Made by a program: the position numbers and the translations under genes | The notes under the pieces: model-generated | What the model saw: only the letters and a program-made list of their open reading frames with translations | Database searches by the model: none | Told to the model about the DNA's origin: nothing | Shown: positions 18,077 to 34,352 of the stretch, one piece after another | Numbering within the stretch: the first letter of the stretch is position 1 | Layout of the letters: each line of letters begins with the position of its first letter | Assembly (NCBI GenBank): GCA_016873315.1 | Contig: VGXL01000002.1 | Span: 1-64,000, forward strand | Direction of reading: 5' to 3' | Length of the DNA stretch: 64,000 bases | Origin: Phycisphaerae bacterium | Lineage (GTDB): Bacteria > Planctomycetota > Phycisphaerae > Phycisphaerales > SM1A02

Positions 18077-18575
18077 GGTCCAAGCCCCCATCTCGGGTCA
18101 TGCTGAGAACCTCCTGTCAAGGGGTAGACGCCGCATTTCGTGGAAAAAAGTGCGCGATTGCGTTGACCGTGCCCGCGGTTGGTCTATCGTCCTTTGCCTG
18201 CCCGGAACCATGGCTCCCTGTGCCCAATCGCCTCGTCATGGCTGACGAGCGGGCCGGAGCAACACTTCCTCCGGGTCAGGCGGGACAATCCAGGCTCGCG
18301 ATCGGCGCTCCGCGAAGGAGTTGTGGGGATTCGGTCACGAGATCTTGGTGTGTGCGTCGTGTGACCTGCAGGCCATTGGCGTGCAGGTGGTGGGCCTTGT
18401 CCGCGTGATGCGCTTGTCCTGGTTGTGAGCAGTCGTGTCGGGGTTGTGCCGGCGCCGTCGATGGCGCCGTCCAGTTGTTCGGCGTTCCGCCGCGTTCGCG
18501 GAGTGTCCAGGGTGTTCGGTTGGGTGTTCGGTTGGGTGCGCGCTGCACGGATGCGCGCGTGAACAGGAGTCAGCG
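18067..18575. other. Hairpin-rich stretch without a gene between rpmB and dnaG
   Basis: 509 bases with no credible reading frame. Four perfect inverted repeats stand out: CTCGTCA/TGACGAG (18232-18249), CCGGAG/CTCCGG (18254-18274), ACCTGCA/TGCAGGT (18364-18388) and CGGCGCC/GGCGCCG (18450-18469). A 12-base direct repeat (GGTGTTCGGTTG twice) is at 18511-18534, and a promoter candidate lies at 18163-18190. It could encode a structured RNA or be the long 5' leader of dnaG. It does not match the core motifs of SRP RNA, RNase P RNA or tmRNA as far as I can read. Confidence 0.6.
18163..18190 (+). promoter_or_regulatory. Candidate promoter ahead of the hairpin region and dnaG
   Basis: TTGACC, a 16-base spacer and TATCGT. 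If used, the transcript would have a leader of nearly 380 bases before the dnaG start. Confidence 0.4.
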
Positions 18576-20483
18576 TTGTCCGAGGCATTCGGCCATTCCA
18601 ACGATCGCGACCGCGTGCTCGACGCCACGGATTTGGTGGCGTTGATCGGCGAGTCTGTGCCCTTGAAGGTCAAGGGCCGCGAGCATGTCGGGCTCTGTCC
18701 GTTCCACGATGACCGTTCACCGAGCATGGCGGTGGTCACGCACAAGGGCAACGCCTTCTACAAGTGTTTCGCGTGTGGGGCCAGCGGAAACGCGATCGAC
18801 TTCATGATCAACTACCACCGCATGGACTTCCCCGATGCGCTGCGCTACTTGGCGCAGCGTGCGGGCATCGAGCTCCAGCCGCGCGGTGGTGGCGAGTCCA
18901 CTCGAGATGAGTCGGCCGACCTGCGCAAGGCAATGCAGGTGGCGCTCCGCTTCTATCGTCGCGCGCTTGCCGATGCGGACCTCGGCGCGCCGTCGCGCGC
19001 GGTTCTTGATGCGCGCGGCATTTCAGCTGGCATGCGGGATGCGTTCCAACTCGGCGCGGCGCCCGCGTCGTGGGACCGTTTCGTCGAGCACCTGGGCCGA
19101 CTGGCCGAGCACGCCCGAACGAAGGATGAACTGCCCGAGCAAGGTGTGTTTGAGCGCTCGGGTCTGGTGCGTCAGGGTCAGCGTGGCCCGATCGACGGCT
19201 TCCGCAATCGCGTCATCTTCCCGATCCTCGATGAACTGGCTCGCCCCATCGGGTTCGGTGCACGCAAGATCGATCCCGAGGATGAGCCCAAGTACTTGAA
19301 CAGCCCGGAGAGTCCGATCTTCCGCAAGGGTCGCACGCTCTACGGCATTCATGCCGCCAAGAAGCCGATCATCGACTCGAAGGTCGCGATCATCACCGAG
19401 GGCTACACCGATGTGATCGCGTGCCACGCTGCGGGCTTCACGAACGCTGTGGCCACGCTGGGCACCGCGCTCACGCGCGAGCACGCCCGCGTGCTGCAAC
19501 GACTGTGCGAAACCGTGATCCTGCTCTTCGACGGCGACGAGGCCGGCCAGCGCGCTGCCGATCGCGCCCTCGAGACTTTCTTCGCTGTGCCGGTCGATGT
19601 TCGGATCTGCACGCTGCCCGACCAACTCGATCCCGATGATCTGCTCCGCCAGCCGGATGGTGCCGTGCGATTCAAGGCGGCGCTCGATGCGTCGGTGGAT
19701 GCGCTTGTGCATCTGGTCTCGGGCTTCCGCGATCGCTTGGCCGAGCGGCCGGGCGCTGCAGGCCGACAGCGCGTCATCGAAGAGATGTGCCAGCGACTGG
19801 GCGCGATGGGCATCAGCGATGTCCCCGCCCTTCGCCGACGCACGGTGTTGCAGGAACTCTCCCGCGTGTGCGATGTCCCGGTCCACGAACTCGAAGCCGC
19901 CCTACCGCGTCCGCGCGCTGCGGCCGCCGACGCGGCGAGTGCCGAAGGTCCTGGCCCAGTTGCTCAGGCGCCCCTGGCACCGGCTGAGCCGGTGCTCTTG
20001 AGTGGTCCGCAGTTCCGTGCGCGAAGCATGGCCGAGCGCGACCTTCTGGCGGTGCTGCTGGCTGCGCCTGAAGTCGCGGCCGATCGCATCGCGACCCCCG
20101 ATGGCGATTCGCTGCCTGTGCACGAGTTGTATGCGCCAGGCGTCTTCCTCGATCCGGTTGCGCGCACGCTCTGGACCGCGCTGCACGCACGGCTTGAGGC
20201 GGGCCTGAAGACGACCGTCCAGGATGTCATGGCAGATGTGGGCGACCCCAGTGCCAAGAACTTGGCGGCACAGCTTTTCAGCAAGGGTGTGACCCGATGC
20301 GAAGCGCCCGGCGGCGCGCTCGCTCGGCTGACCGAAGCCGTCGCCGACATGGAGCGCGTCATTGCGCGCGTGTCGGCGCCCACCCCGCAGGCCGTTGAGG
20401 ACTTGCGACGCAGGATCGACGAACTCAAGGCGATCGGGCGTCGTCCCACGGCAATCATGCGTTTGGCGAGGGAGGACCGATGA
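18576..20483 (+). CDS. dnaG: DNA primase
   Basis: 635 residues. The start is a TTG at 18576, chosen because AGGAG lies six bases upstream and because the upstream in-frame residues are low-complexity and unlike DnaG. The zinc ribbon is C41-x2-H44...C64-x2-C67 (CPFHDDRSP, KCFACGASGN). The TOPRIM core has ITEGYTDVIACH and ILLFDGDEAGQRAA. The C-terminal part (helicase-binding domain) is divergent. It makes RNA primers at the replication fork. It is followed by rpoD, an order known from the rpsU-dnaG-rpoD macromolecular synthesis operon; rpsU is replaced here by the hairpin region and rpmB. Confidence 0.95.
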   Translation: MSEAFGHSNDRDRVLDATDLVALIGESVPLKVKGREHVGLCPFHDDRSPSMAVVTHKGNAFYKCFACGASGNAIDFMINYHRMDFPDALRYLAQRAGIELQPRGGGESTRDESADLRKAMQVALRFYRRALADADLGAPSRAVLDARGISAGMRDAFQLGAAPASWDRFVEHLGRLAEHARTKDELPEQGVFERSGLVRQGQRGPIDGFRNRVIFPILDELARPIGFGARKIDPEDEPKYLNSPESPIFRKGRTLYGIHAAKKPIIDSKVAIITEGYTDVIACHAAGFTNAVATLGTALTREHARVLQRLCETVILLFDGDEAGQRAADRALETFFAVPVDVRICTLPDQLDPDDLLRQPDGAVRFKAALDASVDALVHLVSGFRDRLAERPGAAGRQRVIEEMCQRLGAMGISDVPALRRRTVLQELSRVCDVPVHELEAALPRPRAAAADAASAEGPGPVAQAPLAPAEPVLLSGPQFRARSMAERDLLAVLLAAPEVAADRIATPDGDSLPVHELYAPGVFLDPVARTLWTALHARLEAGLKTTVQDVMADVGDPSAKNLAAQLFSKGVTRCEAPGGALARLTEAVADMERVIARVSAPTPQAVEDLRRRIDELKAIGRRPTAIMRLAREDR

Positions 20484-20599
20484 AGGACCTTCCCCTGCGC
20501 CGCGCGCGAACGAGCACCCCCAGTGGCCCCCAAGTCCGGGCCCATCAGAACCACCACTCCGCCGATCCCCGGCGGCACCAGTCGATTGGAGCATGAACC

Positions 20600-22432
20600 G
20601 TGAGCACGATTGAACAGGAATTCCCCCCCGTCCTCGCCCAGCTGGTTGCGCATGGCGCCACGCGCCGTTGGATCTCCTGCGAAGAGATCAACACCTGCGT
20701 CCCCGACGAGTTCGTCGATCCCGACAAGCTCGACGAACTGCTGCACCATGTGCGCGCGCTCGGCATCACGCTGATCGACGAACCTGAGCGTCTACGCCAC
20801 GGCTGGCAGACCATGCCGGCGCCGCTGCAGACGCACCTGAAGTTCCAGCGCGACGACGAGCGCAAGGTCAAGCCCAAGGAGCCCGGCGCCGAAGCTCCCA
20901 AGCCCAAGCCCAAGAAGCAGGTCGCGTTCAGCTCGGACGAACCGAACTTGGACGACTTGGAAGAGGATCTGCTCGACGAGGCCGAAGCTCAGGCTGCGGT
21001 CGAGCAGGCGCTCGCCGAACAGGGATCAAAGCGGATCGATGACCCGATCCGCATGTACCTGACGCAGATGGGCACGATCCCGCTGCTCACGCGCGAGCAG
21101 GAAATCCGCCTCGCCAAGAAGATCGAAACCACGCGCATGATGTTCCGGCGCATGACGCTCGAAAGCGATTACTGCGCGCGCCAAGCGATTGACACGCTGC
21201 GCCAGGTGGCGGCGGGCGAACTGCCGTTCGATCGCACCATGCGCATCTCGACCGCAGAGAGCAACGCCAAGGAAAAGGTCGACCAGCGCATTCGTTACAA
21301 CCCCCAGACCATCGAGAAGCTCTTGGAGCTGAACGACGAGGACTGGAAGTTGCTTGAACCGGGCAAGTTGCCGGCCGAGAAGGCCGATGCGCTTCGCGCC
21401 CGCATGCAACAGCGCCGTCGCAAGGTGGCCACGCTCCTCGAGGAGTGTTGTCTGCGCACCGGCCGCATTCAGCCGCTCATGCGAAAGCTGCAGAACGTGA
21501 ATCGCAAGATGATCGATCTGCAGCGCATGCTGGAGAAGGCTGACCGCAATCCCGAGCGCTACGACCCCGAGGATGTGCAGGTGCAGCGCGATGAACTCAC
21601 CGGGCTTCGTGACCTGGTCATGGAAGACCCGGCGAACCTGCTGGACCGATGCCGCACAATCGCTCGCGTGTTCGGCGAGTACGAGCAGGCCAAGCGCGAC
21701 TTGTCGGGCGGGAACCTTCGACTGGTGGTCTCGATCGCCAAGAAGTATCGCAATCGCGGTCTCCCCTTCCTTGACATCATTCAGGAAGGCAACACCGGCC
21801 TGATGCGTGCGGTCGACAAGTACGAGTACAAGCGTGGCTACAAGTTCAGCACCTACGCCACCTGGTGGATTCGCCAGGCGATCACGCGCGCCATCGCCGA
21901 CCATGCCCGCACGATTCGCGTGCCGGTCCACATGATCGAGACGATGTCCAAGCTCCGGAACATCCAGAAGCACATGCTTCAGGACCTGGGCCGCGAGCCG
22001 ACCGTCGAGGAGATTGCAGCCAAGGCGAAGATGCCCGTCGAGGAAGTGCGCCGCGTGATGAAGATCAGCCGTCATCCGATCTCGCTGGACCGCCCGGTCG
22101 GCGAGAGCGAGGACAGCCACTTCGGCGACTTCATCGAGGACGAAAAGCAGGAAGCCCCCGCCGAAAGCGCGAGCACGGAAATGCTGCGTCAGCGCATCAA
22201 CGATGTGCTGCGCACGCTCACCTACCGCGAGCGCGAGATCCTCAAGCTCCGCTACGGCATCGGCGACGGGTACACCTACACGCTCGAGGAAGTCGGCCGC
22301 ATCTTCAAGGTCACGCGTGAGCGCGTTCGTCAGGTCGAGAGCAAGGCCATCCGCAAGCTGCAGCACCCCGTGCGGCGGCAGCGTCTGGCCAGCTTCATGA
22401 CGGCCGACGGCGAAGATGGCGCCGGCGAGTGA
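20600..22432 (+). CDS. rpoD: Primary RNA polymerase sigma factor (RpoD/SigA)
   Basis: 610 residues, start GTG 20600 with GGAG eight bases upstream. An N-terminal region 1.1-like part and an acidic linker precede region 1.2 ([20 protein letters not shown]). Then comes a non-conserved region of about 200 residues, and region 2 ([20 protein letters not shown], then [17 protein letters not shown]) for the -10 element. Regions 3 and 4 end in an HTH ([19 protein letters not shown]) that reads the -35 element. This is the housekeeping sigma factor. The gene lies 116 bases after dnaG, likely in one unit, and is followed by the WXG100 operon on the same strand. Confidence 0.95.
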
Positions 22433-22497
22433 GCCGACATCGGTCTAGGCCATCGCCCGGACTGCGGATTGAGCGGCGAAATCGGCGCGCGCGCCGA

Positions 22498-22503
22498 TAG
22501 GAT
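22498..22503 (+). promoter_or_regulatory. TANNNT -10 element six bases before the WXG100 gene
   Basis: TAGGAT, six bases, then ATG 22510. No Shine-Dalgarno sequence and no clear -35 element. Suggests a leaderless start for the export operon, separate from rpoD. Confidence 0.45.
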
Positions 22504-22509
22504 GGCCGC

Positions 22510-22782
22510 ATGGCCAAGGCTGTCGTCGATCCGCAGGAACTCCGCCGTTTCGCCCACGACCTCAAGAAGTTCAACGGTGAGCTGCAGGCCGGCATGGCCA
22601 CGCTCGGCGCGCGCATGGGCACGCTGCAGCAGACCTGGCGCGATCAGGAGCAGCAGAAGTTCCAAGAGGAGTTTGAGCAGACCGTGAAGGTGCTGCAGAA
22701 GTTCCTGAAGGCGAGCGAGATCCATGTGCCGTTCCTGATGCGCAAAGCTGACCGCATCGACGAGTACCTGCAACAGCGCTGA
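22510..22782 (+). CDS. WXG100-family protein (type VII-like substrate or partner)
   Basis: 90 residues, all helical, with the size and hairpin layout of ESAT-6/EsxA proteins. The turn carries W43-R44-D45 in place of the usual W-x-G, followed eight residues after W by F51. The C-terminus (RKADRIDEYLQQR) has a tyrosine but not the full YxxxD/E export signal. Known role of the family: small dimers exported by, and activating, EccC-type ATPases. The gene starts a tight four-gene unit ending in an EccC-like ATPase, which supports the assignment strongly. Export itself is inferred. TAGGAT lies six bases before the start. Confidence 0.8.
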   Translation: MAKAVVDPQELRRFAHDLKKFNGELQAGMATLGARMGTLQQTWRDQEQQKFQEEFEQTVKVLQKFLKASEIHVPFLMRKADRIDEYLQQR

Positions 22783-22788
22783 TCAGGC

Positions 22789-23481
22789 ATGGACGGCGCC
22801 AACGTCAAGTCCATCGATGCGATCACGCGCTTCAAGGCGACGATCGCGACAGCGCGCGATGACTTGGCACGAGCGTTGGCCGAGGCCGACAGCGACATCG
22901 ACCGTGCCCAACTTTGGATCGAGCGCGAGGCGCCGGCGTACTGGAAACGCCAATTGACCGTTCGCGCCGAAGAGGTCACGGTCTGCAAGAGCGCGCTCTA
23001 CCGCAAGCAGGTCACCGTGAGCGCGAAGGACTCCAAGCCCAGCGTCGTCGATGAGAAGAAGGCGCTCCAACGAGCGCAGGCTCGTCTTGCCGAGGCGGAA
23101 GTCAAGGCGAAAGCCTGCAAGCGATGGGCGACCACATTCCAGCGCGAAGTGATCCTGTTCAAGGGCACCATGTCGGCGATGCAGACGGTCGTCGAGCGCG
23201 ACCTGCCGATGGCCGTGGCGCTGATGAACCGCATGGCCGAGGCACTTGCGCGCTATGCGGCACCAGAACCGATCGAGGTCCAGGCCATGCTCAAGGCCCT
23301 GCGCGAGTCAGCCCAGAGCACACGGCGGTCTGGATCGGCGGACTCGGTCACGGACTCGGCGCCGGACGCGACGGATCCGACCATCGAGTCTGACGCCGGC
23401 GCGTCCGACGCGAGCGATGCAGTCAGTGACGCACCGAGCGACGCACCGAGCGATCCGCCGGGTGACGGAGGCGATCCATGA
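22789..23481 (+). CDS. Coiled-coil protein of the WXG100/EccC-like locus
   Basis: 230 residues, six bases after the WXG100 stop. Residues 1-165 are almost entirely helical and highly charged, with a conserved-looking stretch around LWIEREAPAYWKRQL and VDEKKALQRAQARLAEAE. The last 60 residues are a disordered Ser/Asp/Ala/Pro tail (repeated SDAPSDAP). No signal peptide or membrane helix is seen, so it is probably cytoplasmic. From memory, similar helical proteins stand next to WXG100 and FtsK-type genes in other planctomycetes; I could not check this. A chaperone or structural adaptor of the export machine is a reasonable guess. Its stop overlaps the next start by four bases. Confidence 0.7.
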   Translation: MDGANVKSIDAITRFKATIATARDDLARALAEADSDIDRAQLWIEREAPAYWKRQLTVRAEEVTVCKSALYRKQVTVSAKDSKPSVVDEKKALQRAQARLAEAEVKAKACKRWATTFQREVILFKGTMSAMQTVVERDLPMAVALMNRMAEALARYAAPEPIEVQAMLKALRESAQSTRRSGSADSVTDSAPDATDPTIESDAGASDASDAVSDAPSDAPSDPPGDGGDP

Positions 23482-23693
23482 GCGTGCAAGGGAGCAAAGC
23501 CACGATCCAACTTGCGGTGAAGGAAGTTCGCACCAAGTGGATGCGCACGCGAGAGGAGTGGAACGACTCGGTGAGCCGTTCGCTCGAGGCCAATGTCGTG
23601 GACTCGCTTGAAGACCGAGCACGGTCGGCGATCCTGACGCTGGAGAAGATGCAGGAAACCCTCCATCGCATGCGCCGTGAGTGCGGCGAGTAG
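23478..23693 (+). CDS. Small helical protein with central WND, probable second WXG100-like partner
   Basis: 71 residues, ATG overlapping the previous stop (ATGA). Two amphipathic helices flank W28-N29-D30, and a leucine follows eight residues after the tryptophan, the same spacing as W43/F51 in the WXG100 protein of this operon. The C-terminus (LHRMRRECGE) has no YxxxD/E. It is shorter than a canonical WXG100 protein, so homology is uncertain. The shared W-x-D turn, the helical-hairpin size and the operon suggest that the two form a heterodimer like EsxA/EsxB. No other domain is recognisable. Confidence 0.65.
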   Translation: MSVQGSKATIQLAVKEVRTKWMRTREEWNDSVSRSLEANVVDSLEDRARSAILTLEKMQETLHRMRRECGE

Positions 23694-23697
23694 CCCG

Positions 23698-23703
23698 TAC
23701 ACT
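23698..23703 (+). promoter_or_regulatory. TANNNT -10 element before the EccC-like gene
   Basis: TACACT, seven bases, then GTG 23711. It overlaps the 3' side of the preceding gene's stop region. It may allow separate leaderless expression of the ATPase. Confidence 0.4.
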
Positions 23704-23710
23704 CGCGCGC

Positions 23711-26700
23711 GTGCCGCCCGACTTCATCCAGAGCCGATCGCCCTCGATGACCGAGTCGGTCGGCGCGGCATGGGATCTTCTCTCGGCGGCCGCACCCAAG
23801 CGTGAAGCGTCCATCGCGCAGGCCACAGCGACGCGCGATGGGGTCCGCCTGACCGTTGGCCGTCGACGCCAAGATGAGCTCGCCAAGGCCCGAGCGGCGC
23901 ACGAACTTGATGTGGCCACGGCAGGATCTGATGAGGCGGCCGCCATGACGAGCGCGAAGGCGCGCGCCGAGGAGCTCACGCGTGAACTTGAAGTGTGGGA
24001 CGAGACGAGCCGGCGTCGACTCGACGATGCCGTGGATTCCCGGCGGCGCAAGATCAAGCACAACTTCGACCACGCGATCTGGCAGGCCGAAGCGATTCAC
24101 GAAGAAGCGATCCGCATCCCTGGTCGCGATCTTGAGGCGTATCGCCAGCATCTTCAGGCGCGCGTGTCGGAGTTGGAAGATTTGATGGGGCAAGCCAAGG
24201 CGTTCGTGGGGCGGTGCCGCATGCGCATGCCCCCTGAGCCTGGGCTCGATCCCGCGGCCGCCGCCCAGGCCGGCGCGCAGCCTGAACAGGCCATCCTGCA
24301 GCAAACCGAGGTCGTGCGCGGCCTCAATGCAGAGCTCGGTCAACTTTGGTTGCCGGGAATCTTCCGTGGTCCGATCCTGCTCGCCCCCTGGTTCCTCTTT
24401 GCGGCCATCGGCGCGGGTGGTGCGGCGCTTCTTCCAAGCGGTGATGGCGGACTGGCTGGCAAGCTTGAACTTGCGGTCTACGGACTTGCGGCGGGCACCG
24501 CGCTCATGGTGGTGGTGGCGTGCGTGGCGTACATCGTGGGACGCCAGAAGCTCCATGCGGCGCTTGCGCCATCGCTCCAGGCGAGCGCAATCGCGCACGC
24601 GGCGATGACCTCGGCACTGGCGAACGCAGAAGGCGCCCGGCGTTCGAAGGAAGCCGTCGTGACCAGCCAGCGCGATGAGTCGCTCGCCGAGGCACATGCC
24701 AAGTACGGGCCCATGCTCGACGAGCTCGAAGCGCGTCGCAACGAGAAGCTCGCCATCATCGAACAGACCGTTCCGGCCAAGCGCGCGGAAATCGCCGCGC
24801 GTCTTGCCCTGCAACTCAACGATGCTCGTGTGACTCGCGAGGTCCGCGTGGCTCGCGCAGCGCGCACACTCGAAGCGAGCCAGGCATCGATCGACGGCCG
24901 GACCCGCACCGAGGTGTTCGCGGCCGAAGCAACTTGGAATCAATCGTGCACCGAAGAACGGGCTGCCTGGTGTTCGGCGCGTGACGAAGCAGCTGGACTG
25001 CTCAGTTCGCTCCGCGCGGCCGATGGTGCGCTCTTCCCGGAATGGGATTCGGTCGACGCCTTGTCATGGGTTCCCGCTCGCCAACCCGGACCTGCCGCCC
25101 GTCTAGGCCACTGCACGCTTGATCTCGCCACGATTCCTGGTGCATTGCCGAACGACCCTGCCTTGGCATGGCCCGCGGGACTGCCGACCTCGCTGCGAGT
25201 TCCGGTGGCGCTTGGCTTCCCGACGCATGCATCGCTCCTGCTTGAGTGCGGCCATGAGGGTCGCACGCAGGGCGTCGCCATGCTGCAGCAAGCGATGCTG
25301 CGCGTGCTGACCGCGATGCCTCCTGGCAAGGTTCGATTCACGATCGTCGATCCGGTCGGCCTAGGCGAGGGCTTCGCGAGCTTCATGCACCTTGCCGACG
25401 AGCACGAGCAGCTCATCGGCGAGCGCATTTGGACGGACCATCGTCACATCGAACAGAAACTGACCGACCTGTCGGAGCACATGGAGACGGTCATCCAGAA
25501 GTACTTGCGCAATGAGTTCGAGAGCATCGAGGAGTACAACCGACAGGCCGGCGAAATCGCCGAGCCGCTGCGCGTGCTGGTCTTCTGCGACTTCCCTGCA
25601 AACCTGACTGAGGCGGCGGCGAAGCGGATCGCGGGCATCGTGAATTCCGGTGCGCGATGCGGCGTGCACACCATGATCCTGCGCGACGAGCGACTCGAGT
25701 GGGTGCCGGGCATCGATCAAGCCGAGTTGCGCGCACGAAGCCTGTGCCTGCAGCATCGCGATGGCCGCTGGGGCGTCGCGAACCTTGGCATGCAGGGGCT
25801 TCCATTCGAACCAGAGATGCCCCCCGCTGCTGACCGACTGATCCCGCTCCTGCGCCGCATCGGCAAGGCAGCCAAGGAAGGCAGCAAGGTCGAGGTGCCG
25901 TTCGAGATGATTGCCCCCAAGCCCGATGCGCTCTGGTCGGGTTCGACCGCGACGAGTGTGCAGGTTCCGCTGGGCCGGACCGGCGCGACGCGACTGCAGA
26001 CGATGACGCTCGGCGTGGGCACGAGCCAGCACGCGCTCATCGCCGGCAAGACGGGCTCAGGCAAGAGCACGCTCTTGCACGCGCTCATCACGAATCTGGC
26101 GCTCTGGTACAGCCCCGACGAGGTCGAGTTCTACCTCGTCGACTTTAAAAAGGGCGTCGAGTTCAAGACCTACGCCACGCACCGATTGCCGCACGCGCGC
26201 GTCGTGGCCGTCGAGAGCGATCGCGAGTTTGGCCTGTCCGTGTTGCAAGGGCTTGATGGCGAACTCAAGCGGCGCGGGGATCTGTACCGGCAGCTCGGTG
26301 TGCAGGACTTGGCCGCGTATCGCCGCACTGGGCACGCCGTGGTGCTCCCGCGCGTCTTGCTGATCATCGATGAGTTCCAGGAGCTCTTCATCGAGGATGA
26401 CCGCATCGCGCAAGATGCCAATCTCCTGCTCGATCGACTGGTGCGACAAGGTCGCGCGTTTGGCATGCATGTCGTGCTCGGGTCGCAGACCCTGAGTGGC
26501 GCGTTCAGTCTTGCACGCACGACGATGGGCCAGATGGGCGTGCGCATCGCGCTGCAGTGCTCCGAAGCCGACAGCCAGGTGATCCTGTCCGACGAAAATC
26601 TGGCGGCGCGCCTGCTCAGCCGACCCGGCGAGGCGATCTACAACGATGCGGGCGGTCTGCTCGAGGGCAACAGCCCGTTCCAGGTCGTGTGGTTGCCCGA

Positions 26701-27625
26701 TCAGGTGCGCGAGCAATGGCTCAACCTTGCGCAACTCAAGGCGCAGGCCGAACCGCCCAAGCGGCCGCTGGAGACGATTGTCTTTGAAGGCAACGCTCCG
26801 GCGTCGTTGGACGCGAATGATGTGCTCTCTGGTCGCGCGCCCGCTGGGACGAGTCCACTCGCGCCGAGCCTGTGGCTTGGCGAAGCGATCGCCATCAAGG
26901 ATCCCACAGCGATCCGTCTGCGCCGCATCTCGGGTGCGAACACGATCGTGGTCGGGCAACGCGACGATGCAGCGCAAGCGATCTGTGCGAGCGCGCTGCT
27001 CTCGCTGGCTGCGCAAGCGCCTGGCGCGCGTGTGGTGTTGCTCGATGGAACAACTGCCGACGACCCCTCATTCGGCGGCCTGGCGGCGCTCGGTCGATCG
27101 ATCGGACTCGATGTCGTGACGGCGACGCCCAAGGAGCTCCCCGATCGCCTGCAGGAGCTGGCTGCTGAAGTGGCAAGTCGCCAAGAGTCCGGCACGGCCG
27201 ACGGCGCGACGACGCTGCTCCTGGCGCATGGATTGCACCGCATGCGTGCCTTGCGCCGGAACGAGGACGACTACGGCTTCGGCGGCGGTGATGGACCGCC
27301 GACGCCGGACAAGATCTTCATCGCGCTCGCGCGTGAGGGCCCCGCCGTCGGCGTGCATGTGCTGGCGACCGTCGACACCGCGACCAACATGGGACGCGTC
27401 CTCGATCGCAACGGCTTGCGTGAGTTCGACAACCGCGTGCTCTTCCAGATGAGCGCGACGGACTCGAGCACGATGGTCGACTCGCCGGCCGCCGCGCGAC
27501 TTGGGCCCGAACGCGCGATGCTCTACAACGAAGAACTCGGGATCGCTGAGAAGTTCCGCTTCTATGCCTGGCCGGAGCGATCGTGGATTGAAGCCACCGC
27601 GGCGCGGCTCCGTTCGGGCGCGTGA
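23711..27625 (+). CDS. EccC/EssC-like FtsK/SpoIIIE ATPase of a type VII-like system
   Basis: 1304 residues from GTG 23711 (GTG 23681 and ATG 23747 are alternatives; none has a ribosome binding site). Layout: long coiled coil (about 20-190), two membrane helices (about 219-242 and 254-277), a second coiled coil (280-440), then three FtsK-like domains. The first (about 490-670) has lost its P-loop (GHEGRTQG). The second (about 750-1015) is intact, with Walker A GKTGSGKST (779-787) and Walker B VLLIIDEFQEL (D887). The third (about 1050-1297) is degenerate (GQRDDAAQA). Two N-terminal TMs with three tandem ATPase domains is the EccC/EssC architecture; the long coiled coils are unusual. It is the presumed motor for WXG100 export at the inner membrane. 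The 3' end overlaps convergent hrpA by 64 bases. Confidence 0.85.
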   Translation: MPPDFIQSRSPSMTESVGAAWDLLSAAAPKREASIAQATATRDGVRLTVGRRRQDELAKARAAHELDVATAGSDEAAAMTSAKARAEELTRELEVWDETSRRRLDDAVDSRRRKIKHNFDHAIWQAEAIHEEAIRIPGRDLEAYRQHLQARVSELEDLMGQAKAFVGRCRMRMPPEPGLDPAAAAQAGAQPEQAILQQTEVVRGLNAELGQLWLPGIFRGPILLAPWFLFAAIGAGGAALLPSGDGGLAGKLELAVYGLAAGTALMVVVACVAYIVGRQKLHAALAPSLQASAIAHAAMTSALANAEGARRSKEAVVTSQRDESLAEAHAKYGPMLDELEARRNEKLAIIEQTVPAKRAEIAARLALQLNDARVTREVRVARAARTLEASQASIDGRTRTEVFAAEATWNQSCTEERAAWCSARDEAAGLLSSLRAADGALFPEWDSVDALSWVPARQPGPAARLGHCTLDLATIPGALPNDPALAWPAGLPTSLRVPVALGFPTHASLLLECGHEGRTQGVAMLQQAMLRVLTAMPPGKVRFTIVDPVGLGEGFASFMHLADEHEQLIGERIWTDHRHIEQKLTDLSEHMETVIQKYLRNEFESIEEYNRQAGEIAEPLRVLVFCDFPANLTEAAAKRIAGIVNSGARCGVHTMILRDERLEWVPGIDQAELRARSLCLQHRDGRWGVANLGMQGLPFEPEMPPAADRLIPLLRRIGKAAKEGSKVEVPFEMIAPKPDALWSGSTATSVQVPLGRTGATRLQTMTLGVGTSQHALIAGKTGSGKSTLLHALITNLALWYSPDEVEFYLVDFKKGVEFKTYATHRLPHARVVAVESDREFGLSVLQGLDGELKRRGDLYRQLGVQDLAAYRRTGHAVVLPRVLLIIDEFQELFIEDDRIAQDANLLLDRLVRQGRAFGMHVVLGSQTLSGAFSLARTTMGQMGVRIALQCSEADSQVILSDENLAARLLSRPGEAIYNDAGGLLEGNSPFQVVWLPDQVREQWLNLAQLKAQAEPPKRPLETIVFEGNAPASLDANDVLSGRAPAGTSPLAPSLWLGEAIAIKDPTAIRLRRISGANTIVVGQRDDAAQAICASALLSLAAQAPGARVVLLDGTTADDPSFGGLAALGRSIGLDVVTATPKELPDRLQELAAEVASRQESGTADGATTLLLAHGLHRMRALRRNEDDYGFGGGDGPPTPDKIFIALAREGPAVGVHVLATVDTATNMGRVLDRNGLREFDNRVLFQMSATDSSTMVDSPAAARLGPERAMLYNEELGIAEKFRFYAWPERSWIEATAARLRSGA

Positions 27626-30600
27626 GTCTGGACCAGATCGGTCCACAAACGCTCGAGTCGCTGCTCGGAGTGCCCTGGCGCAGCGTGGTCTTGCGCGAAC
27701 ACACTGAGTTCCCACTCCAATTCAGCCTGACGGAAGGTCTCGACCGCCGCTTGACCTGACGGCATGGAGGGCGGCATCGCCGCACGCGATCGCCACGCGA
27801 GGACCCGATCGATGTTCGCCTCGTCACGGGTGGCACCGCGGTCCTCGATGCGTTGCAGTCGAGCTTCCACTGCAGCAAGTCGTCGCGGGAGCGACTCCCA
27901 TGTTTGCCACTCAAGGGTGCGCGTCGCCTCGGCGGGAAGGACGCGCGCGTGCAGGGCGCGGACATCGTCGATCGAACGCTGCCAGGCTGCTGGCACGGGT
28001 GCATCGAGCGCACGCGCGATGCGCTGATCGATTCGCCAGACCGCGATCGCAAGCGGCAGCGACTCGTGAACGAACGCCCAGGCCCGTTCGCCCAGCGCGG
28101 CGACGATGGCGTGGAAGTCGGCTCGACTGCGCGGGAGCAGATCGTGCGGAACGCCCTTGAGCACGGCGAGTCGGCAGACTTCGGCGACGACATGCGGTTC
28201 GAGCAGGCGATGACTCGCTGCTGTGCATGCCTCGCTGAACGAGGGATGATGCCGGACTTGTTCCGCAAGCCGTGGCTCGATCGCATCAAGTGCAAGGTCG
28301 CGCACGGCCGCGACATGGAGTGTCGCCGCCCGACCTGCATCGGTTTCGATCACCAGTGTGGCACCGCCCGGCGTGACCTGAAGCGCAGGATGACCGGTCA
28401 CCGCGTGCCCTCCGAGGTCGAAGTCGACCGACATCGCAAGCGCTGGCCACGGCCAGTCGTGCGAGGACCGCCCCAGCCACGCACTCCACCCCATGGCCTG
28501 CATGGACGATTCGTTCCAGGCTGCGCGCGCAGCGGCGTGGTGCTTTGCGAGCAGGCTCCGCAGGTCTCGCGAACGATCCACGATGCCGGCTGGTCCGCGT
28601 ACCACAAAGCCCATGCGCAAATGTGGATCGAGGGCATCGAGCGCAAGATCATCAGGCAGGACAGACAGCCCCGTGAAGGAGGAGAGCCATGCAGCGAGTC
28701 GCCCCCTGATCGAACCCGTTCGATCCGAAAGTTCAGCGGCGGCATCGCGCGCCACATCGGCGGCTGGGATGCATCGCGTGCGGATTCGCTTGGGCAGCGT
28801 GCGGATCAGCGCCTCGATCAACTCGTCGTGCAAGCCCGGCACCAACCAGTCGTAGGCATTGGGGTCGGCGAGTTCGAGCAACGCGAGCGGCAACTCGGCT
28901 TCGATGCCGTCGGTCGATGTTCCTGGCTCATGGTGATAGTGCAGCGGAATGCGCAGGCCGTGATCGTCGAGCGCGTCGGGGTACGCACTCGGTTCCTGGA
29001 CGCGATCCGGATCGGCGAGCAGGTCACGCTCGGACATGCGAAGCGAAGTGGCATGTCGCTCGTCACGCAGCCATGAACGAAAGCTGGGCCAAGCGTGAAG
29101 ATCAGCAGGAAGGCGAGCGTCGTAGAAGGCGAACTCGCCGTCGCGACCGGCCACGAGATCGTGTCGCCGCTCCCTCTCCTGTCGTGCGAGCAGTCGATCG
29201 CGGAGCGCGAGGTTGTCGGAGATGGGGGCGCAGGCACCCGGCAGTTCGCCATCGATGAGCGCGCTTTGGATGAAGAGTTGTCGCGATCCCGCTGGATCGA
29301 GCGGACCGAACGGCACGCGTCGTCGCGGGATGAGCGTGAGGTGGCCCATGGTGGCACGCTCCCACGCGGCGACATGTCCCGTCTCGACGCGCCAATGCGG
29401 TTCGCTGACGGTGCGCTCGACCATGTGCGGCGCCACGGCCTCGACCCATTCGGGCCGGATGCGGCAGGCGTCGCGCAGCCAACGACGGGCCGTCTCGACG
29501 ACCTCGACCGCGACGATCCAGCGGGCCTGCGACTTGGCGAGCGCGCTCGATGGATGCAGCTCGGCGGACTGGCCACTTGGAAGGCGGTAGGTGCCATCGT
29601 CCTGACGATGTGCGATGTGCGACACGAAGCCGGCCAAGATCGCACAGTGCACGCGCTCCGGATCGCTCTCGTCGGCGAGCGGCGGGATCGTTCCCGTGAG
29701 CCGTTCCGTGGCAAGGCGTTTCAGTTGCGCATGGAGATCATCCCATTCGCGCATGCGCATCGGACTGAGGAATCGCTCAGCGCACCAACGACGACGCGCA
29801 CTGGAGCCGAGTTCAGCGCACGCGCCCTTCCACGCGCGCCAGAGCTTGAGTGCGCTCATGGCATCGCTGCGTTCATCCCGAAGAAGCGCGTGGGCAAGGT
29901 CCGCGTTCGCCGTCGCCCCCGCCGGGCGATCCCGCGGATCTTGGATCGCCATGCGCGCGGCCAGGATGAGCGCCTCGGCGAGACACGCGTTGGCGTGGCC
30001 AGCCACGATCGTGCGCGCGATGCGTGGATCGAGCGGCCACTGCGCAAGGTCCCGGCCGAGCCGCGTCAACCGAAGTTCACCAGTGAATGCCCCGAGTTCA
30101 ATGAGTGTGTCCTGCGCTTCGCGCACGAGCCGAAGCGATGGCGGATCGATCCACGGGAAGTGCTCCGCCGCGCCGAGCCCGATGGCTGACAGTTGCAGCA
30201 CGACGCCACTCAAGTTGGCGCGCTGCACTTCGGGCACGGTGAACTCGGGACGAAGATCATGGTCTGCCTGGCTGAAGAGCCGGACGCACAGGCCGGGGAA
30301 GAGCCGTCCCGCGCGACCGGATCGTTGGCTGGCACTGGCCCTCGAAATCGGCTCGATCGGAAGCCGCTGCAGTCGGCTGCGCGGGCTGTATCGGCTCAGC
30401 CGCACGAGTCCCGAGTCCACGACCCATCCGATTCGCGGCACGGTCAGGCTCGTTTCGGCGATGTTGGTGCAGGCGATGATCCGTCGCGCGGGGCCGGGCG
30501 TGAAGATGCGGTCCTGCTGGTCGCTGGGCAAGCGCGAGTACAGCGGCAGCACCTCGATGCCTTGGAAGCGTCCACGCGCCCCATCGACGAACTCGTGGAT

Positions 30601-31488
30601 TTCGCGCTCGCTCGCGAAGAAAACGAGTCCATCGCCTGGAGCTTCGTCGAGGCAGACGGACGCCGCGTCGAGCGCTGCCTGAACGACATCAGCGTCCTCG
30701 CCGGCAGCCATCGGCGCGTAGCGGATCTCAACTGGATGCGTGCGTCCCTCGACTTCCAGGACTTCGGCGCCGTCAAAGTGCGCGGCGAAGCGAGCTGCAT
30801 CCAGCGTGGCGCTGCTGATGATCACGCGGAACTCGGGGCGTTGGCGCAGAATCTTTCGCAACGCACCGAGCAGGAGATCGATGTTCAGGCTCCGCTCGTG
30901 AGCTTCGTCGACGATGACCGCATCGTGTCGCAGGAGGAGCGGATCCTCGCGAAGCTGTGCGAGCAGGACGCCATCGGTCATCACCACGAGTCTGGAGCGT
31001 GGTGATGCGCTCGTCTCGAATCGAACCTGATAGCCCACGGCCTGTCCTGGTTCCGTGCCGAGCTCGTGCGCGATTCGTGTGGCAACACTTCTGGCGGCCA
31101 CGCGACGGGGCTGCGTGTGGGCGATCGTGCCGTCCATGCCGAGGCCAGCCTCGAGCAGCATCTTCGGCAACTGTGTGGTCTTGCCGGAGCCGGTCGATGC
31201 GCTGACGATCAGGACCTGATGCGTGCCGAGCGCGTGGTGCACGCGATCGCGGCAGGCGCTCATTGGGAGTTCGGGCGGGTAGCTGATCGCGAGGGCGTGG
31301 GACATGCGCCCGATCCGCACATCGCTCGATCGTTGGATTGCCAGTTCGATGGCGCGATGCAGTTGGCTGTGGGGCTTGCCCTCGCGCACGAGCCGCTCGT
31401 AGCTGCGGAGCTGACGCCGCAACGGTGGAAGGTCCGCGCGCAGGCACTCGGCAAGACGCGCCTGAAACATCGCGAGGGCGCTGGTCAC
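27562..31488 (-). CDS. hrpA: ATP-dependent RNA helicase HrpA (DEAH box)
   Basis: 1308 residues, the same length class as E. coli HrpA (about 1300). Start GTG 31488. Walker A is STGSGKTTQ (98-106), the DEAH box is VDEAHER (194-200), motif III is SSAT, and motif VI appears as QRSGRAGR. The helicase-associated and oligonucleotide-binding parts and a long C-terminal DUF3418-type domain follow. It is an RNA helicase; in proteobacteria it has been linked to mRNA processing and ribosome rescue. TACACT stands six bases before the start, with TTGCGG 19 bases further up inside the tRNA-tail repeat, so the repeat may supply part of its promoter. Confidence 0.94.
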   Translation of the reverse strand: MTSALAMFQARLAECLRADLPPLRRQLRSYERLVREGKPHSQLHRAIELAIQRSSDVRIGRMSHALAISYPPELPMSACRDRVHHALGTHQVLIVSASTGSGKTTQLPKMLLEAGLGMDGTIAHTQPRRVAARSVATRIAHELGTEPGQAVGYQVRFETSASPRSRLVVMTDGVLLAQLREDPLLLRHDAVIVDEAHERSLNIDLLLGALRKILRQRPEFRVIISSATLDAARFAAHFDGAEVLEVEGRTHPVEIRYAPMAAGEDADVVQAALDAASVCLDEAPGDGLVFFASEREIHEFVDGARGRFQGIEVLPLYSRLPSDQQDRIFTPGPARRIIACTNIAETSLTVPRIGWVVDSGLVRLSRYSPRSRLQRLPIEPISRASASQRSGRAGRLFPGLCVRLFSQADHDLRPEFTVPEVQRANLSGVVLQLSAIGLGAAEHFPWIDPPSLRLVREAQDTLIELGAFTGELRLTRLGRDLAQWPLDPRIARTIVAGHANACLAEALILAARMAIQDPRDRPAGATANADLAHALLRDERSDAMSALKLWRAWKGACAELGSSARRRWCAERFLSPMRMREWDDLHAQLKRLATERLTGTIPPLADESDPERVHCAILAGFVSHIAHRQDDGTYRLPSGQSAELHPSSALAKSQARWIVAVEVVETARRWLRDACRIRPEWVEAVAPHMVERTVSEPHWRVETGHVAAWERATMGHLTLIPRRRVPFGPLDPAGSRQLFIQSALIDGELPGACAPISDNLALRDRLLARQERERRHDLVAGRDGEFAFYDARLPADLHAWPSFRSWLRDERHATSLRMSERDLLADPDRVQEPSAYPDALDDHGLRIPLHYHHEPGTSTDGIEAELPLALLELADPNAYDWLVPGLHDELIEALIRTLPKRIRTRCIPAADVARDAAAELSDRTGSIRGRLAAWLSSFTGLSVLPDDLALDALDPHLRMGFVVRGPAGIVDRSRDLRSLLAKHHAAARAAWNESSMQAMGWSAWLGRSSHDWPWPALAMSVDFDLGGHAVTGHPALQVTPGGATLVIETDAGRAATLHVAAVRDLALDAIEPRLAEQVRHHPSFSEACTAASHRLLEPHVVAEVCRLAVLKGVPHDLLPRSRADFHAIVAALGERAWAFVHESLPLAIAVWRIDQRIARALDAPVPAAWQRSIDDVRALHARVLPAEATRTLEWQTWESLPRRLAAVEARLQRIEDRGATRDEANIDRVLAWRSRAAMPPSMPSGQAAVETFRQAELEWELSVFAQDHAAPGHSEQRLERLWTDLVQTHAPERSRAAVASIHDRSGQA

Positions 31489-31494
31489 GCAGAA

Positions 31495-31500
31495 AGTGTA
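31495..31500 (-). promoter_or_regulatory. TACACT -10 element six bases before hrpA start
   Basis: Minus-strand TACACT, six bases, then GTG. A TTGCGG lies 19 bases upstream within the 94-bp repeat copy nearest to hrpA, a slightly long but possible -35 spacing. Confidence 0.45.
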
Positions 31501-31503
31501 GGG

Positions 31504-31705
31504 GCTACAGGACTCGACGCCGCAAGGCGCGATGGACTGTGCGCGGCTTTGCCGCGCGGATGCGGCTCTGCCGCATCCAAGAGCTCACGAAGTGAGCGCT
31601 ACAGGACTCGACGCCGCAAGGCGCGATGGACTGTGCGCGGCTTTGCCGCGCGGATGCGGCTCTGCCGCATCCAAGAGCTCACGAAGTGAGCGCTACAGGA
31701 CTCGA
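31504..31705 (-). repeat. 94-bp tandem repeat containing the 3' part of tRNA-Val
   Basis: Two copies of 94 bases (31504-31597, 31598-31691) that look identical, followed by a third partial copy (31692-31705) that is the tRNA itself. On the minus strand each unit opens with TCGAGTCCTGTAGC, half the T arm plus acceptor bases of tRNA-Val(UAC). Then come three hairpins: GCTCAC/GTGAGC, GATGCGGC/GCCGCATC and GCGCGGC/GCCGCGC, all with three-base loops. Confidence 0.92.
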
Positions 31706-31760
31706 ACCTGTGACCCCCGCTGTGTAATAGCGGTGCTCTAACCAACTGAGCTAAGCGCCC
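31687..31760 (-). tRNA. tRNA-Val (anticodon UAC)
   Basis: A 74-base cloverleaf. Acceptor GGGCGCT/AGCGCTC with one G-U pair, D arm GCTC...GAGC, anticodon stem CCGCT/AGCGG around ATTACAC (anticodon TAC), T stem ACAGG/CCTGT around TTCGAGT, discriminator A, no encoded CCA. Together with the GAC isoacceptor at 6.6 kb it can read all four valine codons. Its 3' end is repeated downstream in the 94-bp units. Confidence 0.95.
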
Positions 31761-31786
31761 GACCGAGCGAGTCTATCGCGACGGTC

Positions 31787-32308
31787 TCATTCCCCCTTGC
31801 GCAGGAAGTAGGTGAACTCCTTCGTCGCCATGTTGGCGCACGGTCCACTCGGGTCCGTCGTCCCGCGCTCAGTGTCCACTTGGAACACATGCCACCCTTC
31901 GCCGCCGACCTCGTACCAGATCTCATCCACCTTCTCTTGCCAGAACGCCCCCGCTGCAGCCATCGAGGGAAACTCCTGCTCCCACGAAGTCTTTGGCGAC
32001 GAAGCGGGTCCGATGCTGCCACGGCAGATGAATCGGCCCTGATCGTCGCTGCCGTAGGACGCGCGTCCGCCGGGAGACTCGAACATCCTTCCCTCGCATG
32101 CGTTGCCGGCTCCAGCGAGTGTCCAGACTTCGCGCCCCCGCGCGAAGTGCCAGCGTCCAGGCGCGTCCTGCAGATTGCTCGCCGTGGCTTCGTGAATCGA
32201 GAGCGGCCAGAACACGCCTGCTCCGATCGCTCCCGCTCCAATCGCGAGAAGGACGAGCAGGATGGATCGATGCGTGGCGCGCCCAGCTGCGGGAGTCGTG
32301 GTGGTCAT
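31787..32308 (-). CDS. Membrane-anchored protein of unknown function
   Basis: 173 residues from ATG 32308 (an ATG at 32317 is an alternative). A short N-terminus is followed by one hydrophobic helix (ILLVLLAIGAGAIGAGVFW) and an external domain with three cysteines and many aromatic residues (GRWHFARGREVWTL, WHVFQVD). No lipobox or catalytic motif is seen. The arrangement suggests a protein anchored in the inner membrane with a periplasmic domain of about 130 residues. It lies just upstream of tRNA-Val on the same strand. I do not recognise it. Confidence 0.6.
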   Translation of the reverse strand: MTTTTPAAGRATHRSILLVLLAIGAGAIGAGVFWPLSIHEATASNLQDAPGRWHFARGREVWTLAGAGNACEGRMFESPGGRASYGSDDQGRFICRGSIGPASSPKTSWEQEFPSMAAAGAFWQEKVDEIWYEVGGEGWHVFQVDTERGTTDPSGPCANMATKEFTYFLRKGE

Positions 32309-32398
32309 GCGGTGCATTGTGCCACGGACACGGTTGGGAACGCCCGGATCCACCCTTCGTCGTGCCGCTCCCGGCGGCTATCCTCCACCTTCCCCACG

Positions 32399-34279
32399 AT
32401 GTCTGGCCCCGCGCGCGAACTTCTCTTGATGGCCCGGCGACCGCTCTCGGTCGTCTTGGTCGCCGTGCTCGCCGCGTGCACCGGTTCGTTGGTGGAGAAC
32501 GCCCCCGAGCGACCGAAGCAAACACGAGCCGATCGTCGCGTGATCCCGATGGATGTCGATCCGATCATGCGCGGCACGATCGCCGCCGAGACGATCGTGA
32601 CCGGATTCACGCCCACGGTGGTGCGCGGCTACGGACTCGTCTTCGATCTTCACGGAACGGGCAGTCGCATTGCGCCGACCGAAGTCCGGGCCCAAGTCTT
32701 GAAGGATCTGCAGCGGCTGCGCCTTGGCGCTGACGGCAAGGCACCTGACTCGAGTGAGCTCGATCGTCTCCTTGGCGAGGAAAACACGGCGATCGTCGTC
32801 GTCGAGGGGATCATCCCGCCCGCGGCACCCAAGGGCACGCGCTTTGACCTTCGCGTGTTCGCTGCGCCCGGCACAGGCGCCACCAGCCTTGAAGGCGGTC
32901 GTCTCATCCTGACGGATCTCCGACCTGGTCCCTTGATGCTCGGCAGTAAGCAACCCAAGATCTTGGCGCGCGGCATGGGTGACTTGGTCATCAATCCCTT
33001 TGCCGATCCCGTCGGGGTGAGCACGGACACCGTGAACCGACTCAGTGGGCGTGTCCTCAATGGCGGCGTCGTCACCGATGACTTGGTGCTTCGGCTGCGC
33101 CTGGCGACGCCGAGCCACGCTCGCACCAAGTTGATCGCCAGTGCCATCAACAGTTCATTCCCTCGCGAGCCGGGACAGCACGACGACACCGCGCGTGGGC
33201 GAAGCGACGAAGCCGTCGATGTAGTGATCCCGCCGTCCTACTTCAGTCGGACGAACGACTTTGTCGAGTTGATTCGTCACTCTCCGCTCAACACCGCGTC
33301 GATCGAGGCCACCGCCTTACAGGTGAAGCGCGCGCTGATCGCCAATCCCGGTGCCGCTGCAGCAGCGAGCCTGCGTTGGCAAGCCTTGGGGAAGAAGGCA
33401 ATTCCCACCGTGCAGACCTTGTATGAGTACGCCGAGGAGCAGCCGCGCTTTGCTGGGCTGCAGGCCGGCGCGTATCTGAACGATCCGGTCGTCGTACCGC
33501 ACTTGCTGAAGATGGCCTCGGATGATGGATCGTCGCTGCGGATCGACGCGATCAAGCTCTTGGCCAACATGCAGGGCAATCCCCGGGTGAACATTGGGTT
33601 GCGCCCGCTCGTCGACGACACGGACATCGATGTCCGGCTCGCCGCGTTCGACGCCCTGCTCAAGCGCGGGGACGCCTCGATCGGTGAAGTCGATGTGAAC
33701 GGCAAGTACATGCTGAACACGATCGGGAGCAAGAAGCCCATGATCTATGTCACCCAAAGCGGGCAACCGCGTGTGGTGATCTTCGGCGACGAGGCCGAGG
33801 TCGTGCGCCCGATGACGCTGACCGAGTTCGGTTCCCGGCTGGTCGTTCGCGGCGACTACGACCAACCGCTGCTCGATGTCTTCTGGCAGGCCGCCGACGG
33901 AGGCGTGCTGCGGGAGCAGGTGCGCCCGGAACTCGCGGAGTTCACCAGGTTCCTTGGCCACCGCGCCTCGCCCGAGTATCCATCGCCCGGTCTGAACATG
34001 AGTTACAGCGAGGCGATCGGCACGCTGCATCGCCTTTGGCGAGATGGCTACTTCAAGGGCGACTTCAAGGTCGAGCAGGATCGCATCTTGGCCGAACTGC
34101 TGCGGACCGAAGAACAGGATGCCGAGGCCGACCGTCCGGAGTTTGATGTGCCCGAGGACCAGCGGGATCTTGATACCGAGGCGAAGGAGCGATCGGGTGC
34201 CGGGACCGACCTCGACCGTGCGTCGGTCGGCAGCCCGGTTGATTCGCAGCGGCCTTCGCGCGATACTGTCCCCCGTTGA
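32399..34279 (+). CDS. FlgI (P-ring)-like lipoprotein with HEAT-like C-terminal part
   Basis: 626 residues from ATG 32399; ATG 32429 is an equally good start. Both give a lipoprotein signal ending LAAC. The N-terminal 270 residues follow the FlgI pattern: VRGYGLVFDLHGTGS, VVVEGIIPPAAPKGTRFDLR, SLEGGRLILTDLRPG, then NGGVVTDDLVLRLRLATPSH and LIASAIN. A helical stretch resembling HEAT repeats follows (VPHLLKMASDDGSSLRIDAI), then a domain I do not recognise and an acidic tail. FlgI normally forms the flagellar P ring, but a P-ring protein is not a lipoprotein with such an extension, and no flagellar gene is near. A related envelope ring or scaffold protein is inferred. Confidence 0.65.
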   Translation: MSGPARELLLMARRPLSVVLVAVLAACTGSLVENAPERPKQTRADRRVIPMDVDPIMRGTIAAETIVTGFTPTVVRGYGLVFDLHGTGSRIAPTEVRAQVLKDLQRLRLGADGKAPDSSELDRLLGEENTAIVVVEGIIPPAAPKGTRFDLRVFAAPGTGATSLEGGRLILTDLRPGPLMLGSKQPKILARGMGDLVINPFADPVGVSTDTVNRLSGRVLNGGVVTDDLVLRLRLATPSHARTKLIASAINSSFPREPGQHDDTARGRSDEAVDVVIPPSYFSRTNDFVELIRHSPLNTASIEATALQVKRALIANPGAAAAASLRWQALGKKAIPTVQTLYEYAEEQPRFAGLQAGAYLNDPVVVPHLLKMASDDGSSLRIDAIKLLANMQGNPRVNIGLRPLVDDTDIDVRLAAFDALLKRGDASIGEVDVNGKYMLNTIGSKKPMIYVTQSGQPRVVIFGDEAEVVRPMTLTEFGSRLVVRGDYDQPLLDVFWQAADGGVLREQVRPELAEFTRFLGHRASPEYPSPGLNMSYSEAIGTLHRLWRDGYFKGDFKVEQDRILAELLRTEEQDAEADRPEFDVPEDQRDLDTEAKERSGAGTDLDRASVGSPVDSQRPSRDTVPR

Positions 34280-34352
34280 CGCAAGTGGTTGTCGCGTGCC
34301 GTGTGCGGCCGGTCCCATGGATGGGACTGCGCGATGACAGGAGGTCAGATTG

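Follow-up and report, generated by a model that had tools for sequence, protein, structure and literature searches.

Type VII secretion has been studied almost only in Gram-positive bacteria and mycobacteria, and how far it needs many accessory subunits is debated. An ATPase (TsxC) and a WXG100 protein (TsxA) are present in all of the classes T7SSc to T7SSj (PMC11217815). According to passages in two articles, pairs of a WXG100 protein and an FtsK/SpoIIIE protein were reported for some Gram-negative bacteria by Sutcliffe in 2011, and WXG100 proteins have been found in Lentisphaerae, Verrucomicrobia, Proteobacteria and Cyanobacteria, their function being unconfirmed (PMC10765036, PMC6471051). 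Since WXG100 proteins together with an FtsK-type ATPase have been noted in some Gram-negatives from 2011 on, the kind of locus analyzed here is not wholly new.

The locus belongs to a member of Planctomycetota, a phylum with a two-membrane cell plan. It lies in the window, by which we mean the whole stretch of 64,000 nucleotides that was analyzed, and codes for a WXG100 protein, a coiled-coil protein (CC), a second small hairpin protein (P3) and an FtsK-type ATPase. An earlier note, made from the letters of the window, had described it as a minimal type VII secretion-like operon. The families, the predicted hairpin folds, the gene order and the negative searches for YukD and YukC agree with this description; the WxG motif and the EccC/EssC equivalog cut-offs do not. 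Our preferred reading, to which we assign a probability of about 0.58, is that the four genes specify one obligate machine that would act as the type VII secretion core does, export included.

Operon layout and genomic setting

The coordinates of the four genes and of other features are compiled in Table 1. As the earlier note had it, the genes are tightly packed, with spacings of 6, -4 and -13 bases from the WXG100 gene to the ATPase gene. Its starting point for the operon, 22498, is 12 bases 5′ of the WXG100 ATG, the operon itself being as described. It had also placed the operon behind the primary sigma factor gene. At the window locus this is correct, the rpoD-like gene directly 5′ of the operon ending at 22432, but it does not hold as a general link: because the flanking genes vary across relatives, we rejected a tie between the operon and the sigma factor. 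Moreover, a comparison of flanks across relatives revealed no phylum-wide recurrent neighbor beyond the four genes.

Table 1. Coordinates of the operon genes, neighboring genes, ATPase regions and extended CC genes of relatives
Feature	Position	Strand	Remarks
WXG100 gene	22510..22782	+	90 aa
CC gene	22789..23481	+	230 aa
P3 gene	23478..23693	+	71 aa
ATPase gene	23681..27625	+	1314 aa at longest reading; probable start GTG 23711 or ATG 23747
hrpA-like helicase	27562-31488	-	
FlgI-like protein gene	about 32.5 kb of window		
SMC gene	about 34.4 kb of window		
ATPase membrane helices	residues about 227-250, 262-288		hydropathy prediction
ATPase D0	residues 470-740		degenerate FtsK-like domain
ATPase D1	residues 750-1005		Walker A 789, Walker B 893
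ATPase D2	residues 1060-1300		degenerate FtsK-like domain
CC + Imm33-like	L055:11711-12730		
CC + Imm33-like	L060:1191-2225		
CC + Imm33-like	L062:5847-6950		

The region 18435-36000 of the window is a housekeeping block with dnaG, rpoD, the operon and genes for an hrpA-like helicase, a FlgI-like protein and SMC. Near relatives have the operon within the same block (dnaG-rpoD-operon-hrpA-FlgI-like-smc), parts of which recur in several genera. One lineage (L058, L061, L076, L083, L090, L162) has the ATPase gene directly 3′ of a topA-like gene, with the other three genes elsewhere in the cases checked.

Conservation and co-occurrence of the four genes

The earlier note had suggested a survey of gene neighborhoods for the same four-gene order. 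The order WXG100-CC-P3-ATPase is complete in 30 of the 35 ATPase loci of near relatives (own genome included); two of the five incomplete loci are at contig ends, and for the remaining three the trio is found elsewhere in the genome. A genome-wide scan returned at least 559 loci, and among the 80 best of these, a set that spans Planctomycetota, Lentisphaerae and Verrucomicrobia and overlaps with the 35 loci, the four genes are all present in 60. Complete loci include one from Lentisphaerae (L136) and one from a Prosthecobacter bin (L141). Conservation of the order at this level in both sets is far beyond chance. One locus recorded as Alphaproteobacteria SP218 (L133) is very similar to the planctomycete loci and probably comes from a misnamed bin.

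Of 156 genomes drawn from across the phylum, 21 carry the WXG100 gene, and exactly these 21 carry the ATPase gene. P3 and CC are encoded in those 21 genomes and in none of 20 genomes negative for WXG100 and ATPase, although shared ancestry inflates all of these counts. The genes do not have to be neighbors. A single contig of one genome (G134) carries them at 0.23, 0.71, 1.94 and 2.66 Mb, a second genome (G077) has the set spread over three loci, and a third (G186) has two pairs, WXG100/CC and P3/ATPase. Because the set has been retained without linkage in several lineages, there is strong evidence that the four proteins form one obligate functional unit.

The WXG100 protein and P3

Assignment of the first protein to the WXG100 family, as proposed in the earlier note, was confirmed by an HMM search: it matches PF06013 with 37.1 bits (cut-off 27.3) and is the only match in the 2.4 Mb genome. 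The invariant alignment columns are present, and the turn reads W43-R-D45-Q-E47, a WxD variant of the motif. WxD is found in all 74 distinct WXG100 proteins of the relatives and WxG in none; the YxxxD/E motif is likewise absent from these 74.

P3 had been described merely as a second small helical protein. Helical it is, yet instead of a generic partner it appears to be a hairpin of the WXG100 type. The AlphaFold2 model of the single chain (pLDDT 94) consists of helices 3-27 and 31-70, joined by a turn that contains W28-N-D30, and WxD is present in all of 84 P3 proteins. PF06013 is matched by 3 of 27 P3 members (best value 7e-4), and P3 and WXG100 profiles cross-match between loci with values down to 5e-6. 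The nearest solved structures according to Foldseek are CFP10-ESAT6 and EsxA/EsxB, with TM up to 0.78 (EsxB) and E of about 1 or more, a value which is not significant for a helical protein as short as P3. Profile-profile comparison of P3 with WXG families by hhalign gave 10% probability and E of 0.003, a result that is weak alone. Considered together, this evidence from motifs, profiles and predicted structure is good but not conclusive that P3 is a second WXG100-like protein. Close to its end, P3 has a nearly invariant cysteine (Cys69; 79 of 84 sequences).

Both small proteins carry a conserved acidic residue near the C-terminus. All 43 WXG100 sequences have an acid at residue 84, four positions after an invariant alanine (A80), giving AxxxD/E; 93% of the P3 sequences have one at residue 68. 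The distance between the acid and the tryptophan is 41 residues in WXG100 and 40 in P3. In streptococcal EsxA, where the export signal consists of WxG plus PhixxxD, the export acid lies 44 residues past the tryptophan. The arrangement in both planctomycete proteins resembles this bipartite signal, and the invariant acid of WXG100 would seem to be near the position that the acid occupies in type VII export signals.

The four proteins evolve at different rates. Mean pairwise identity is 60% for WXG100, 43% for the ATPase, 36% for P3 and 30% for CC, so that WXG100 changes most slowly, as one might sooner expect of a structural component than of a protein that is secreted and exposed. We also considered that WXG100 or P3 paralogs encoded elsewhere might serve as substrates, but rejected this possibility, as a search of 61 genomes revealed no further convincing copy of either.

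The CC protein

AlphaFold2 predicts CC, noted earlier as a coiled-coil protein, to be a long two-helix hairpin (H9-75 and H87-157, core pLDDT about 98), followed by a disordered, acidic and variable C-terminal tail. W52 and Y156 are conserved. No known family was found for CC in Pfam, and Foldseek returned generic coiled coils only, nothing specific. Three relatives have an extra Imm33-like domain (PF24719, best value 1e-14) at the C-terminus of CC (Table 1), and several further CC proteins, 330-390 aa long, resemble those bearing this domain.

The Imm33-like domain raises the question of whether the four proteins serve contact-dependent antagonism or defense, with a toxin encoded elsewhere and the CC tail or Imm33-like domain indicating which part is toxin or immunity. 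Antagonism of this type is known from the type VIIb systems of Bacillota (PMC9600955). However, no toxin neighbor recurs, and in near relatives the set resides in a stable housekeeping block and not in a variable island. PADLOC produced only generic FtsK/HerA matches for the ATPase, and we discarded a defense link on these grounds. Overall, we regard antagonism as improbable.

The ATPase

The ATPase is composed of an N-terminal coiled coil, two membrane helices, a second coiled coil and three FtsK-like domains, D0-D1-D2. The three domains are mutually related, D0-D2 and D2-D1 being linked by hhalign, while the direct comparison of D0 with D1 aligned nothing but the stretch common to both slices. 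Walker A and B motifs are retained in D1 only, and D0 and D2 are degenerate. The P-loop of D1 reads GKTGSGKS, and each of 26 aligned sequences has exactly one P-loop. Reduction to a single ATP site is functionally plausible, because export by EssC needs the Walker motifs of D1 only (PMC13355648) and the DUF preceding D1 in EccC5 is a degenerate ATPase domain (PMC11154593).

In comparison with family models, the ATPase scores 122, 98 and 93 bits against EccCa, EssC and EccCb, respectively, and 38 bits against FtsK; it falls far short of the NCBIfam equivalog cut-offs for EccC/EssC (122 versus 509 bits). The best solved relatives are EccC (1.7e-36), EccC5 and YukB (5e-20), FtsK following at 1e-11, and a profile search likewise gave EccC (1.3e-38) and YukB (2.5e-28), the middle domain matching EccC D1. 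The motifs DFKKG and RQGRAFGIH are nearer to DxKGG and RQGRAYWIH of EccC than to DPKxVE and QKARAVGIH of FtsK. In a tree of D1 domains, deep branches do not separate EccC from FtsK and long branches meet; because the tree does not resolve, we placed the ATPase beside EccC on the strength of profile scores and motifs. With this reservation, the earlier assignment as an EccC/EssC-like three-domain FtsK ATPase stands, with one P-loop only. Apolipoprotein matches of the ATPase profile fall in the coiled coils and were dismissed, as they look like composition artifacts. These coiled coils (residues 60-225 and 290-440) evolve fast, with a mean pairwise identity of 19%, compared to 73% for D1. In one genome (G114), two ATPase matches on different contigs (G114:C126 and G114:C138) accompany a single WXG100 gene.

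The unresolved tree, together with a score of 114 bits against Pfam FtsK_SpoIIIE, would also fit an additional DNA translocase of FtsK type, in which the small proteins serve as DNA or membrane adaptors. Nevertheless, all well-covered relatives that were tested encode a canonical FtsK separately (an 897 aa frame in G000), and the operon ATPase ends in a degenerate ATPase domain instead of the C-terminal gamma domain of canonical FtsK. The protein shares two membrane helices and tandem degenerate domains with EccC, its scores against EccC profiles and structures are much better than those against FtsK, and its partners are WXG100 hairpins. A role in DNA translocation is therefore highly improbable.

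Accessory subunits and effectors

In 21 genomes, neither YukD/EsaB nor YukC/EssB was matched over the cut-off, the B. subtilis control being positive, in agreement with the absence of YukD stated in the earlier note. EccB was not matched in the 21 genomes either, but here the control genomes likewise gave no signal. Upon inspection of the locus, EccD, EccE and MycP are not within the operon. No outer-membrane component was recognized, and flanks of relatives contain no effector gene that travels with the set. The set itself shows no LXG motif and no toxin.

The main rival to our reading is a fixed inner-membrane complex that does not export, for example one organizing or sensing the envelope, in which the hairpins are subunits and not cargo and nothing is secreted. 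It would fit the occurrence of each small part in one copy only in nearly all genomes, the absence of effector genes, the slow evolution of WXG100 and the housekeeping neighborhoods in near relatives. On the other hand, type VIIb EsxA is both a substrate and a required part (PMC13355648), and single copy and slow evolution are therefore compatible with export as well. In addition, WXG100 and P3 seem to have kept the geometry of the bipartite signal. We consider a non-exporting complex unlikely, though the most serious of the alternatives.

Proposed mechanism

Returning to the preferred reading of a type VII-like export machine, we infer the following arrangement. The EccC/EssC-like ATPase would be an inner-membrane protein, probably hexameric, with D1, the only active domain, supplying the force and the degenerate D0 and D2 gating or binding the substrate. 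WXG100 and P3 likely build a helical bundle, either together or as homodimers, and the CC hairpin is probably packed against them in the way that PPE and LXG domains are against PE and Lap proteins. The variable tail of CC, or the Imm33-like domain in some species, might be the adaptable part. The bundle would dock on the ATPase via the WxD turn and the conserved C-terminal acid, and would either be moved through the inner membrane or open a path through it.

If this is true, there is a type VII-like system in two-membrane bacteria. Four proteins that are retained or lost together, also where their genes occupy four places in the genome, would represent a natural minimal machine and make the question of the irreducible core of type VII transport testable.

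Comparison with known systems

Of the known systems, type VIIb of Bacillota (EssC, EsxA, LXG, Lap1/Lap2) shares with the planctomycete set a membrane FtsK-type ATPase with degenerate D0 and catalytic D1, a WXG100 protein, and the combination of a long helical domain with two small WXG100-like hairpins (PMC9600955, PMC13355648). In particular, CC and the two small hairpins recall the LXG-Lap1-Lap2 presecretion complex (PMC9600955). In contrast to type VIIb, no YukD or YukC/EssB was found with the planctomycete set, which lacks the LXG motif, a toxin and the D3 domain, has WxD in place of WxG, and possesses N-terminal and stalk coiled coils. With type VIIa/ESX of Actinomycetota (EccC, EsxA-EsxB, PE/PPE) it has in common EccC as the best-scoring family, paired small hairpins and a degenerate domain before D1, the DUF of EccC corresponding to D0 (PMC11154593). 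Unlike type VIIa, the operon is without EccD, EccE and MycP, WXG100 is without YxxxD/E, and the ATPase has one ATPase-like domain fewer. As WxG and the T7SSb subunits were looked for and not found, we did not assign the set to T7SSa or T7SSb. Descriptions of T7SSc to T7SSj are confined to Bacillota and Actinomycetota, and most of these systems have a YukD-like TsxB (PMC11217815).

We found no description of the four-part set in Planctomycetota in the open-licence literature. Known here from its genes and predicted folds, it may be called a new, reduced, type VII-like variant. Whether it deserves the rank of a distinct class of Planctomycetota and related phyla, in which four proteins (an EccC-like motor, two WxD hairpins and one long hairpin) would export their own hairpins through the inner membrane of a cell that has two membranes and manage without any known accessory subunit, is a more tentative proposition, for which we see somewhat less than even odds. 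As far as the passages citing Sutcliffe go, the Gram-negative pairs have the same two core parts, WXG100 and FtsK/SpoIIIE; what the present analysis adds to them is the four-part composition, the WxD signature, the spread in Planctomycetota and the all-or-nothing co-occurrence (PMC10765036, PMC6471051).
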